A DNA stretch of 32,108 bases from Alphaproteobacteria bacterium SS10 (GTDB taxonomy: Bacteria; Pseudomonadota; Alphaproteobacteria; TMED2): the NCBI GenBank assembly GCA_019192455.1, contig JAHCML010000003.1, forward strand, positions 279,135-311,242, given 5' to 3'. Of this stretch, positions 1,956 to 29,343 are shown piece after piece. Position numbers and translations under genes: made by a program. Position 1 is the stretch's first letter. Every line of letters starts with the position of its first letter. The notes beneath the pieces are model-generated. The model was given only the letters and a program-made list of their open reading frames with translations. It was not told the origin of the DNA and made no database searches.

Positions 1956-3629
1956 TTAGCTAAGCTTAGGACCAGAGCGGTCTTCCGGACCCGGTGGCTT
2001 CGGCCCACCACTGGCGCCATCGTCTTTCGGAACTACCGGTTTTGGCAGTTCATCAAGGCGCATGGTCACCGCGCGAATAGCGGACATGGCGTCGCCTTTC
2101 AGCATGGTTTCCAGCGAGCTTTGCACGCGTCGGCGAAGGTCTTGGCCGTTCTTGCCGTACATTGACAGGCCAAACCCCATTGCCTCATGAACGCGATTAA
2201 CATTAGGACCTTCTTCCCGTGCCAAATCTTGCAGTTCTTTAGCACGAGGGTCACTGATCACATACACACGTCCCGTGTCTGTAACGCCTGTCGGTTTGTC
2301 CGAGCTTTCGGGTGTTGGGGTGTTTTGGCTGACACCACCAATGAAACGCTGCCAACCAGCCAGAGCAACGCCAAGTGCTTGATTAGGCGTTCCTTTGTGG
2401 ATTGAGGCATGGATCGCATCCATCAAGCGTGGCTTGAGTTTCTTGGATGTATCATTAGCCAACCGGTCTACGCTGTCTTTCAGCTGTGGGTTGTCAAAAC
2501 GCTCTACCAGATCGTCTGCATAGACTTGCATGTCGGTGCCAGGGATCGGATCAATGGTTGCTGCGACTTCTGAAAGGAAGCGTTTGGTGAACGCACCCAT
2601 GTCAGGGTCGGCCATCACCTCATCAACGGTTTTGAAACCGGCGACCCGGCCCAGCGCACCCATCATCATATGGGCGCCATTCAGCATTCGGATTTTGGCT
2701 GCCTCAAACGGGCGCACATCCTCGGTTAGCTTCACGCCTTGGACATCGCCAATCGGCGGCTTGGTGCCCTCGGCAAAGTTATCTTCAATGATCAGCTGAC
2801 GGTATGGCTCTGTGAACACTGGCGAGGCATCGCTGATGCCATGCTTGTCCACCAAGCTTTGGGCATCTTCCGCGCTAGCGGCCGGGGTGATTCTGTCCAC
2901 CATCGAGTTTGGGAACACGATGTTGTAGCCAATGTAGTCGGCAAGCTCTTTGCCGTATTTGGCTTCGGCAAACTGCTGCAGCACTTTCTTGGTCACAGCG
3001 CCATTGTCTGGAATGTTATCCAAGCAGGCCACGGTGATCGGCGGCAGGCCAGCTTCCTTGCGCTGCTTCAATGCTTCGGTCAGCACGGCAGGCATGGAAA
3101 CAGGTGGGGTTGTGCCAGCAATCTCATCGGCCACCCGCGGTGCTTCACCATCGACGAGATAGTCCTTGTCGATCGCATAGGCCTGCGGATCTAGGTTGTC
3201 GTCATCATCGCGCTTATACCCGCCCTGGGTGATGGTCATCGACACAACCTTAGTGTCGGGATGGGCAATGCGAGCGATCAGTCGCTGAGGATCTTCCGGA
3301 CCGACGAGGGTCTCTTTGACCGCTGAAATAATGCGGGTCTTGTCGCCTTCTGGCCGACGCTCGGTCAGGGTGTACAGATTGTCCTGCGGCTCAAGCTGGT
3401 CCCGGATGCGCGCGGAGCGCATGGAAACGCCGCTGATGCCCCAATCACCCTTTTGATCGGCTGGCATGTCATCAATGATGCTAGCCCAATGCGCACGGGC
3501 GAAGTTGCCGAGACCAAGGTGGACGATGCCGATCTTGCCATTCTCTGGTGGCTTCTCAACGATGGCCACGTTCTCTGGCGGGTTGTCCACCATGTCTTGG
3601 GACAGTGGGCGGGCGTTAGGCGTAGACAT
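1956..3629 (-). CDS. Second, divergent mannitol dehydrogenase family protein
   Basis: A 557-aa paralogue of the following gene, about 60 residues longer. It keeps the family skeleton: GIVHLGLGNFARAH near 34-47, FPNSMVDRITPA at 239-250, and the catalytic K312, N317, H320. It therefore looks like an active polyol dehydrogenase. Differences include FARAH where the family has FHRAH, an Asp-rich insertion near 140-148, an insertion of about 25 residues near 440-460 that is rich in Ser, Thr and Pro, and a Pro/Gly-rich tail. It is probably first in a transcript that continues into the second dehydrogenase and the HAD gene. The start ATG has only a weak AGGT element upstream. Substrate is unknown; divergence suggests a different polyol or sugar acid (mannonate and altronate oxidoreductases belong to the same superfamily). 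Confidence 0.8.
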   Translation of the reverse strand: MSTPNARPLSQDMVDNPPENVAIVEKPPENGKIGIVHLGLGNFARAHWASIIDDMPADQKGDWGISGVSMRSARIRDQLEPQDNLYTLTERRPEGDKTRIISAVKETLVGPEDPQRLIARIAHPDTKVVSMTITQGGYKRDDDDNLDPQAYAIDKDYLVDGEAPRVADEIAGTTPPVSMPAVLTEALKQRKEAGLPPITVACLDNIPDNGAVTKKVLQQFAEAKYGKELADYIGYNIVFPNSMVDRITPAASAEDAQSLVDKHGISDASPVFTEPYRQLIIEDNFAEGTKPPIGDVQGVKLTEDVRPFEAAKIRMLNGAHMMMGALGRVAGFKTVDEVMADPDMGAFTKRFLSEVAATIDPIPGTDMQVYADDLVERFDNPQLKDSVDRLANDTSKKLKPRLMDAIHASIHKGTPNQALGVALAGWQRFIGGVSQNTPTPESSDKPTGVTDTGRVYVISDPRAKELQDLAREEGPNVNRVHEAMGFGLSMYGKNGQDLRRRVQSSLETMLKGDAMSAIRAVTMRLDELPKPVVPKDDGASGGPKPPGPEDRSGPKLS

Positions 3630-27024: not shown

Positions 27025-27572
27025 TCTTTCTGTTTCATCGCGCTTTCATCATCGATCGCCACGAATCATTTAGAAAGTTTTCAAAAAGGCAGGCGCAGAA
27101 TGTCTCTCAACTAGCCTCAGAACTGCCTACAAGCGCATGAATATTTCGCGTTTCGAAGCTTTTTTGAATGTTGTGTGATGTATCGATTATACGCATGGGC
27201 GCCCCCCGGCTTGGGCAATTGACTGAAAGTAAGATTGGCCCCATCTATAAGCCCATCACGAGATCGCCCGCCGCCATATCGGAATGGCCTCCCACTTTGG
27301 GTCTTCCGCGGCACTGCATCGTTTATGAGGCGCTTTGCAGGGGCACGCGTTCAACTATCAAGAACCGGTTAAGCGCCCCCGCTTACAGTTGGGTGACGGC
27401 GCCATCAAACCGGCACCCGGTAATAGGCGGATCTTTCGATTGATCGATCCTGGTCAGCGCAGCCGTTTACGGCGCGGTTAAGAGACCCGGATCGCTAGGC
27501 TCGGCACGCTGCTCTGCTCTGCACAGCCCAGCCACATACGGATTAGAGACAGAAAATCGTAAGGAGATTTAC
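27025..27572. other. Long non-coding region, about 550 bp
   Basis: The region is divergent between the orphan anchored protein (minus) and the DJ-1-like gene (plus). Short open frames here (for example 27168-27443) lack a ribosome-binding site and family resemblance. I saw no tRNA cloverleaf or clear terminator. The end holds AAGGAG at about 27561, serving the DJ-1 gene. It could carry a long leader or an unannotated small RNA. Confidence 0.4.
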
Positions 27573-28145
27573 ATGACCAACAGCACCCTCGCAGGAACCC
27601 GGATTGCAATGCTCGTCGCCAATGGCTTCGAAGAAGTTCATTTCACTGAGACCCAGCGTCGTTTCGCTGGCACTGGCGCCGAAGTGACTGTGATCAGCCC
27701 AGAGAATGGCCTGGTCAACGGTTGGCATGAAGGCTCCTGGGGCCATTACTTCCCAATCGACAAGCAGCTGAGCGACGTGCTCGCCGCTGATTACACCGCC
27801 ATCATCATTCCTGGTGGTCAACGCAGCATCGATAAGCTGGCAGCCAACCCCCATGCGCGCCGCATCGTGACTGGTTTCGTTGACGCTGAGAAGCCAGTCC
27901 TGGCCTTCGGTCACGCACCGAACCTGCTGGTCGCTTTCGAGCGCGCCGCTGGCACCAAGGTGAGCGCGGAAGCTGCTGTCGCTGAGAGCCTGACCGGCGC
28001 TGGCGCCACCGTTAGCGAAGAGATGACCACCCTGAGCGGTTCTCTGATGACCTCAACCGTTGTTGAGGAAGAGCCACTTCGTGAGGTTCTGGATCAAGCA
28101 ATCGAGCTGATCTCTGCTACCGGCCAAGTCGCCGACGCTGCCTAA
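27573..28145 (+). CDS. DJ-1/PfpI family protein lacking the nucleophilic cysteine
   Basis: A 190-aa protein with the class I amidotransferase-like fold of DJ-1/PfpI: IAMLVANGFEEVHFTE with the conserved Glu, VTVISPENG, YTAIIIPGGQRSIDKLA and the elbow region PVLAFGHAPNLL. In active members the elbow has Cys-His (AICHGP); here it is G113-H114, and the whole protein has no cysteine. Known PfpI or glyoxalase III activity that depends on that Cys is therefore not expected. Expression appears high: a strong AAGGAG ribosome-binding site, clean codon choice (CTG, GAA/GAG, CGT/CGC, like the nearby groES) and a strong terminator. It may be a binding protein or a stress-related non-catalytic paralogue. 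Confidence 0.88.
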   Translation: MTNSTLAGTRIAMLVANGFEEVHFTETQRRFAGTGAEVTVISPENGLVNGWHEGSWGHYFPIDKQLSDVLAADYTAIIIPGGQRSIDKLAANPHARRIVTGFVDAEKPVLAFGHAPNLLVAFERAAGTKVSAEAAVAESLTGAGATVSEEMTTLSGSLMTSTVVEEEPLREVLDQAIELISATGQVADAA

Positions 28146-28168: not shown

Positions 28169-28196
28169 AAAGGGCCGCATTTTTGCGGCCCTTTTT
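28169..28196. terminator. Terminator shared by the DJ-1-like gene and ctaA
   Basis: AAAGGGCCGC at 28169-28178 pairs perfectly with GCGGCCCTTT at 28185-28194 around a 6-nt loop, followed by TT on the plus strand. On the minus strand the stem also ends in a short T run. It lies between two convergent genes, so it can serve both. Confidence 0.85.
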
Positions 28197-28218: not shown

Positions 28219-29343
28219 CTATGCGGTGGCGGCTGATTTTGCCTCGCCCCGAACACTCCACATAAAGGCCGTTAACAGGGCAAGTAGGATAAGCGCACCA
28301 GCCTGGTGTACGGCAGCCAGGGGTATCCAGACCTGGCTTAACAGGGTGGCAATGCCCAGCAACGTCTGGAACAGCGCCATGCCCCCCACGCCGGCGCCTA
28401 ACACCCGAATGGGCATTGGCAGCGCGGTCTGTCGCCAGGCCCGTAGGCTAAACGCCGCGAGTACGATGGCTGTGGCAATGGCCAGATAGCGGTGGGTGAA
28501 CTGCACCAGCGCTGGATTATCCACGAGGCCAAACCAAAGCGGGCGTACATCAAAGAGCTCACTCGGCAGCCAGGCACCGTTCATCAACGGAAAGGTGTTG
28601 TAGAACAGGCCAGCATCTAGCCCGGCAACAAAGGCGCCCCAGACAATCGTCACGGATACCATGGCGAGGCCAAGCCAGCCATGGGTTATCAGCCCCCTGG
28701 ACGCCGTTGACAGGGATTGGCCAGCGGGGCGCACGATCTGGATTGCTGTTACCACCAGCATGGCGAAGATAAAGGTCGCCATGCCCAGATGCAGCGCTAG
28801 GCGGTAATGGCTGACCGAGGGCCGGTCGACCAGACCACTCATCACCATAAACATGCCGATCACACCCTGAAGGCCACCGAGGACCAACAGGATCCAAAGC
28901 CGACCGTGGAACCCAAGCGGAATCTGGCGACGAAATAGGAACCAGAAGAAGGGCAGGGCATAGACCACACCTATTAGGCGGCCCCATAGCCGGTGAAACC
29001 ACTCCCAGAAAAAGATCAGCTTGAACTGGTCGAGGCCCATGCCGGCATTCTTAAACTGATACTCCGGCGTGGCGCGGTATAGGTCAAAGACACGCTGCCA
29101 CTCCGCCTCATTCAGCGGAGGGATGGCCCCGATCAGTGGCCGCCACTCGGTCATCGACAGACCAGACTCGGTAAGCCGGGTAATCGCGCCAATGATGGCC
29201 ATGGCAAACACCATCCCGGCACTCGCCCAAAGCCAGATCGCAATGGCCCGGCGAGCCTTGTCCCGATCATCAATCTCTGCGGAGTCTATCTGTTGTGAGC
29301 CATCGAGGGCTGCCGTGCCTGCGTCTGACATCTTATTGACCAT
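28219..29343 (-). CDS. ctaA: Heme A synthase (COX15/CtaA)
   Basis: Converts heme O to heme A for cytochrome aa3 oxidase in the inner membrane. The 374-aa protein has about eight membrane helices after an acidic cytoplasmic N terminus. Conserved blocks are AIIGAITRLTESGLSMTEW, FKLIFFWEWFHRLWGRLIG with a heme-ligand His, GGLQGVIGMFMVMSGLVDR, HYRLALHLG, QFTHRYLA and the C-terminal VHQAGAL. This is the alphaproteobacterial/mitochondrial form. Start ATG 29343 has no clear ribosome-binding site; 29331 (MSDAGTA) is an alternative. No cytochrome oxidase genes are nearby, so it is a stand-alone unit. Confidence 0.95.
   Translation of the reverse strand: MVNKMSDAGTAALDGSQQIDSAEIDDRDKARRAIAIWLWASAGMVFAMAIIGAITRLTESGLSMTEWRPLIGAIPPLNEAEWQRVFDLYRATPEYQFKNAGMGLDQFKLIFFWEWFHRLWGRLIGVVYALPFFWFLFRRQIPLGFHGRLWILLVLGGLQGVIGMFMVMSGLVDRPSVSHYRLALHLGMATFIFAMLVVTAIQIVRPAGQSLSTASRGLITHGWLGLAMVSVTIVWGAFVAGLDAGLFYNTFPLMNGAWLPSELFDVRPLWFGLVDNPALVQFTHRYLAIATAIVLAAFSLRAWRQTALPMPIRVLGAGVGGMALFQTLLGIATLLSQVWIPLAAVHQAGALILLALLTAFMWSVRGEAKSAATA

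Follow-up and report, generated by a model that had tools for sequence, protein, structure and literature searches.

The DJ-1 family is defined by one reactive cysteine, and whether it also has functions that do not depend on this cysteine has long been debated. Its PfpI-type members are stress enzymes that detoxify aldehydes. In a window of 32,108 nucleotides from Alphaproteobacteria bacterium SS10 (the whole stretch of DNA analyzed here), one gene encodes a protein of this family with no cysteine at all. This raises the question of whether the gene is decaying or misread, or whether it encodes a working protein, and if so, of what kind.

A cysteine-free protein with the PfpI fold

The features of the locus are listed in Table 1. 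The open reading frame is intact, the product contains no cysteine, and the nucleophile elbow reads L-A-F-G113-H114-A-P (LAFGHAP), confirming the first-pass annotation, which had placed Gly113 at the catalytic cysteine position within an FGHAP elbow.

Table 1. Coordinates of the features of the locus within the window
Feature	Position	Strand	Evidence
Cys-less DJ-1/PfpI-fold protein, 190 aa	27573..28145	+	Pfam DJ-1_PfpI match, AF2 model, best solved match PfpI 8r3n
Shine–Dalgarno AAGGAG, 6 nt 5′ of ATG	27561..27566	+	Read from sequence
Intrinsic-terminator hairpin followed by T-run	28169..28194	+	11 pairs, fold z-score −4.0
Glu21 codon; invariant in clade (46/46), variable in Cys-bearing relatives	27633..27635	+	
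His23 codon, at the catalytic Glu position (PfpI E22)	27639..27641	+	Profile alignment; PMC11987610
Asp87 codon, at the PfpI D86′ position; kept here, only 5/46 in clade	27831..27833	+	
Gly113–His114 codons, at the PfpI Cys112–His113 position	27909..27914	+	
C-terminal Ala189–Ala190 (GCT GCC), degron-like, universal in clade	28137..28142	+	
COX15/CtaA heme A synthase, convergent neighbor; synteny marker, functional link not implied	28219..29343	−	Pfam E 1e-99

Membership of the family is clear from both sequence and predicted structure. The protein matches Pfam DJ-1_PfpI (PF01965) with an E value of 9e-28 and 97.6 bits against a cut-off of 26.6. The AF2 model (pLDDT 94.7) is a plain PfpI fold, for which the best solved structure is PfpI 8r3n (Z 29.9, rmsd 1.3 over 178 residues). 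DR1199 of Deinococcus radiodurans, a stress-response member of the DJ-1 family, has the same fold (2vrn, Z 29.2 to the model) but carries a CHGP elbow, which the window protein does not. The fold is common along its whole length to Pseudomonas aeruginosa PfpI and Escherichia coli YhbO, both glutathione-independent methylglyoxalases, at about 25–28% identity, with G18, D63, P80, G81, G82, and similar core positions in common. The cut-offs of the curated PfpI deglycase subfamilies are missed (84.2 bits against 139.05 for TIGR01382, and 46.4 against 330 for NF040823). The protein is the sole close member in its own genome, where the other PF01965 matches are distant. Fold and descent make it a DJ-1/PfpI protein, but it falls outside the PfpI methylglyoxalases as these are defined by catalysis.

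The first-pass annotation had also drawn attention to the lack of cysteine elsewhere in the protein. This is correct for all 190 residues but unremarkable: a second cysteine is missing in 13 of the 21 Cys-bearing relatives, and any cysteine in 42% of similar-sized ORFs. Thiol avoidance was rejected as an explanation on these figures.

The strong ribosome-binding site, groES-like codons, and strong terminator previously claimed for the gene were all found. Its codon adaptation, calculated against the ribosomal genes of its own genome, is 0.766, which exceeds that of 98.8% of 337 sampled genes of the genome and is on a par with the ribosomal-protein genes (0.67–0.81); groES itself is at 0.822. 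Orthologues in five other genomes lie at percentiles 98, 98, 92, 83, and 54, so that high expression is frequent but does not extend to every genome. A Shine–Dalgarno core is present 5′ of 102 of 110 clade genes. The gene has no operon partners and has its own terminator.

Distribution and phylogeny

A search of genome contigs with the single protein gave no matches and a broad alignment was without a usable pattern, while a narrower alignment yielded 128 relatives. At an E value cut-off of 1e-30, 44 of 385 genomes sampled from the same class, representing about 20 families, have a homologue. A search of named genomes found 80 more, nearly all from Rhodospirillales and other Alphaproteobacteria, in genera that include Azospirillum, Skermanella, Inquilinus, Nitrospirillum, Niveispirillum, Thalassobaculum, and Nisaea, among others. 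A phylum-wide sample of 398 genomes gave two matches outside the class at E 1e-28, both Cys-bearing. One record labelled Mycobacterium sp. KBS0706 has a locus near-identical to that of Inquilinus limosus, and its organism name is probably wrong. Open-licence papers yielded no description of a Cys-less PfpI clade or of the Azospirillum orthologue.

The elbow cysteine is present in none of the 123 readable clade members. Gly or Asp predominates at position 113, with Asn, Ala, Ser, Glu, Thr, or others in some members. The first-pass annotation had asked whether the Cys-less homologues form a clade, and they do. In the maximum-likelihood tree, 46 Cys-less representatives lie on one side of a branch with support 100/99 and 21 Cys-bearing relatives on the other, and the cysteine label changes only once. 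The Cys-less proteins, which are 185–200 residues long, thus form a single, monophyletic alphaproteobacterial branch of the PfpI/YhbO-type DJ-1 family. Among close pairs within it, dN/dS is 0.04–0.29, indicating strong purifying selection.

These results dispose of the simplest explanation, namely that a single genome carries a decaying gene or a sequencing artefact, which the loss of the catalytic cysteine in itself might suggest. A sequencing error hiding a TGT at 27909–27911 is excluded, because no clade member has cysteine there, and decay is refuted because the whole clade shares the loss. Purifying selection, codon bias of ribosomal level, the Shine–Dalgarno sequence, and the terminator all point the same way, as the first-pass annotation had argued in part, and we regard this explanation as having practically no chance of being right.

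Genomic context

The next gene here, in convergent orientation, is COX15, and its recurrence in the same arrangement in Nitrospirillum and in several distant clade lineages supports orthology. In Azospirillum, Arenibaculum, and the TMPK1/f15 lineage, aceA (isocitrate lyase) lies directly upstream on the same strand. Neither adjacency is universal, and there is no operon shared across the clade, the neighbors varying by lineage. A chemotaxis receptor gene is found downstream of the clade gene in Azospirillum.

The 548-bp gap upstream of the gene (27025–27572) contains no notable ORF and, in a consensus scan, no sigma-70 consensus promoter; no Rfam family scored above its gathering score near the gene. 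The gap between aceA and the gene in Azospirillum is also roughly 500–960 bp. A general-stress promoter of the EcfG type was considered for the clade and rejected: just 2 of 110 clade genes have an EcfG-like site (GGAAC-N16-18-nGTT), so membership of the clade in the EcfG regulon is not apparent. Such sites are present 61–72 bp 5′ of the start in three of five Cys-bearing alphaproteobacterial relatives. On this promoter comparison, the Cys-bearing and Cys-less branches seem to be in different regulons.

Elsewhere in the window, ORFs 311–1792 and 1956–3629 (minus strand) have similar translations, of mannitol/polyol dehydrogenase type by eye, and may have arisen by tandem duplication; the second extends further at the C-terminal end.

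Loss of the catalytic site

The catalytic residues of P. aeruginosa PfpI are E22, C112, and H113, together with D86 of the other protomer, and the mutants C112A, H113A, and H113E are all inactive (PMC11987610). In our profile alignment, E22, D86, C112, and H113 correspond to positions 23, 87, 113, and 114 of the window protein, which are His23, Asp87, Gly113, and His114. Of these four residues, the window protein therefore retains His and Asp, which are found in only 7 and 5, respectively, of 46 clade representatives; Glu occurs in 23/46 and Cys in 0/46. The 19 Cys-bearing relatives that were aligned have all four residues in 19/19 cases. P116 and W117 of the elbow are likewise lost in the clade.

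The first-pass annotation held that the conserved Glu and His are kept. For His this is true of His114 here but not of the clade. For Glu it identified the wrong residue, since the profile alignment places the catalytic Glu at position 23, and E20 and E21 are merely adjacent. As judged from the alignment, all four PfpI catalytic positions are shown to have been abandoned across the clade. Taking the sequences together with the published PfpI mutants, we consider it very probable indeed that canonical Cys-dependent catalysis has been lost; as the first step of our proposed mechanism, PfpI-type Cys-dependent methylglyoxal chemistry would be impossible. The suggestion of a non-enzymatic or differently catalytic protein is therefore well supported, by the clade-wide loss of the tetrad as well as by purifying selection and codon bias.

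Newly invariant residues

The clade has also gained conserved residues of its own. E21, Q28, H94, and R97 are present in 46/46 representatives and H58 and R84 in 44/46; at the same positions, the Cys-bearing relatives are variable or have another residue. This pattern of conservation is most simply read as a putative binding site, for either a ligand or a partner protein, and such binding would form the second step of the mechanism.

Alternatively, E21, H58, R84, H94, and R97 could form an acid–base/oxyanion site for a carbonyl or carboxylate, making the protein an enzyme with relocated, Cys-independent chemistry. The invariance of six polar residues in 44–46 of 46 members is as expected for such a site, a ligand of the glyoxylate type would agree with the aceA gene upstream in Azospirillum, Arenibaculum, and the TMPK1/f15 lineage, and DJ-1 and DJ-1d have been crystallized with glyoxylate (entries 4ogf and 4ogg). 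However, free variation at the elbow and its neighboring positions shows that catalysis does not constrain the old pocket, aceA is not adjacent in the window or in many members, and no known relative of this fold operates in this way. We therefore think relocated chemistry unlikely, and prefer a binding function for the rebuilt site.

The C-terminal Ala-Ala tail

The best indication of how the protein is regulated comes from a feature that was absent from the first-pass annotation. Each of the 122 complete proteins of the clade has Ala-Ala at its C-terminus, and so does each of their 82 distinct 12-residue tails, whereas positions −3 to −12 are variable (entropy 2.7–3.3 bits). The background frequency of a terminal -AA is 19/337 (5.6%) in the same genome, 29/834 (3.5%) in neighboring ORFs, and 10/239 (4.2%) in five relatives, and among 45 neighborhood protein clusters the Cys-less clade is the only one rich in -AA. 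The clade relatives are not independent samples, yet they span approximately 20 families with free variation immediately before the AA. Among 21 Cys-bearing relatives there are two -AA tails, or three if a further relative (L120) is read through to its stop. PfpI ends at approximately residue 182 of the model, and the clade tail is thus an added stretch of about eight residues. Together with the abandoned catalytic positions and the new invariant set, this tail is what distinguishes the clade from PfpI and YhbO.

The closest parallel is CdnL of Caulobacter, which ClpXP degrades via its last two alanines, and which is stabilized both in vivo and in vitro when Ala-Ala is changed to Asp-Asp (PMC11034885). 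All six genomes examined, including this one, encode a CdnL that ends in AA, and the Caulobacter-type ClpXP degron is therefore probably ancestral in these Alphaproteobacteria. CdnL and the clade belong to the same bacterial class and have the conserved C-terminal AA in common, but CdnL is a CarD family transcription factor of unrelated fold, and degradation is demonstrated for CdnL, whereas for the clade it is predicted. The genome's own tmRNA tag, ANDNYAAPTALAA, ends in ALAA. In the clade, the position before AA usually carries a polar or charged residue (K, E, or Q), unlike the hydrophobic one of ssrA tags; the CdnL tails examined carry K, D, or A there. By analogy, we infer that the universal Ala-Ala tail may be a degron recognized by ClpXP or by another AAA+ protease related to it. 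The third step of the mechanism would then be that the level of the protein is set by AA-dependent proteolysis, most likely by ClpXP and probably conditionally.

The tail might instead serve structure or docking, for example, as the last part of a long helix at the C-terminus that makes contacts within an oligomer or with a partner, in which case the protein would be stable, and structural or chaperone-like. The modelled C-terminal helix does extend to residue 189, with its last residues at pLDDT 74, which makes the accessibility of the tail uncertain, and the literature treats several members of the DJ-1 family as chaperones. A packing helix should nevertheless conserve several residues, and positions −3 to −12 are almost unconstrained; the exact terminus is retained although the length preceding it differs (185–200 residues in total); and -AA is an established recognition signal in the same bacterial class. 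A docking role is accordingly improbable in our view, and a degron remains the reading that we prefer.

Discussion

The clade protein is widespread and looks like a regulator that is abundant, lacks enzymatic activity, and has its level controlled by proteolysis. The best explanation, which we hold to be probable though by a long way not certain, is that it is a catalytically dead, usually well-expressed protein of the PfpI fold that binds a partner or ligand at its rebuilt site and is cleared by ClpXP-type proteolysis. A constitutive degron is hard to reconcile with high codon bias, because continual destruction of a well-expressed protein would be wasteful; degradation that depends on conditions, or a tail that is masked most of the time, would remove this difficulty, and it is for this reason that we suggest conditional proteolysis.

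A more speculative idea, which we rate as a long shot, is that the abundant AA-tailed pseudoenzyme acts on ClpXP itself, as a competitor, an allosteric regulator, or a ligand-gated adaptor. There is a precedent in LarA of Caulobacter, a heat-shock protein that activates Lon via its own C-terminal degron (PMC10665427), and thus a small alphaproteobacterial protein with a conserved C-terminus that engages an AAA+ protease; LarA is, however, a different protein acting on a different protease, and its tail ends in His. If this idea were true, a metabolite bound at the rebuilt site would tune the amount of free ClpXP, giving metabolite-sensing control built on the DJ-1 fold, by a logic similar to that of LarA on Lon.

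For the DJ-1 family, a natural, selected clade that has lost the cysteine and the catalytic set but retained the fold is a clean control, supplied by evolution, for roles that do not need the cysteine, and it points to positions that can be mutated. If the tail is a degron, the protein would also be a new, and probably abundant, client in the regulated proteolysis network of the Alphaproteobacteria.
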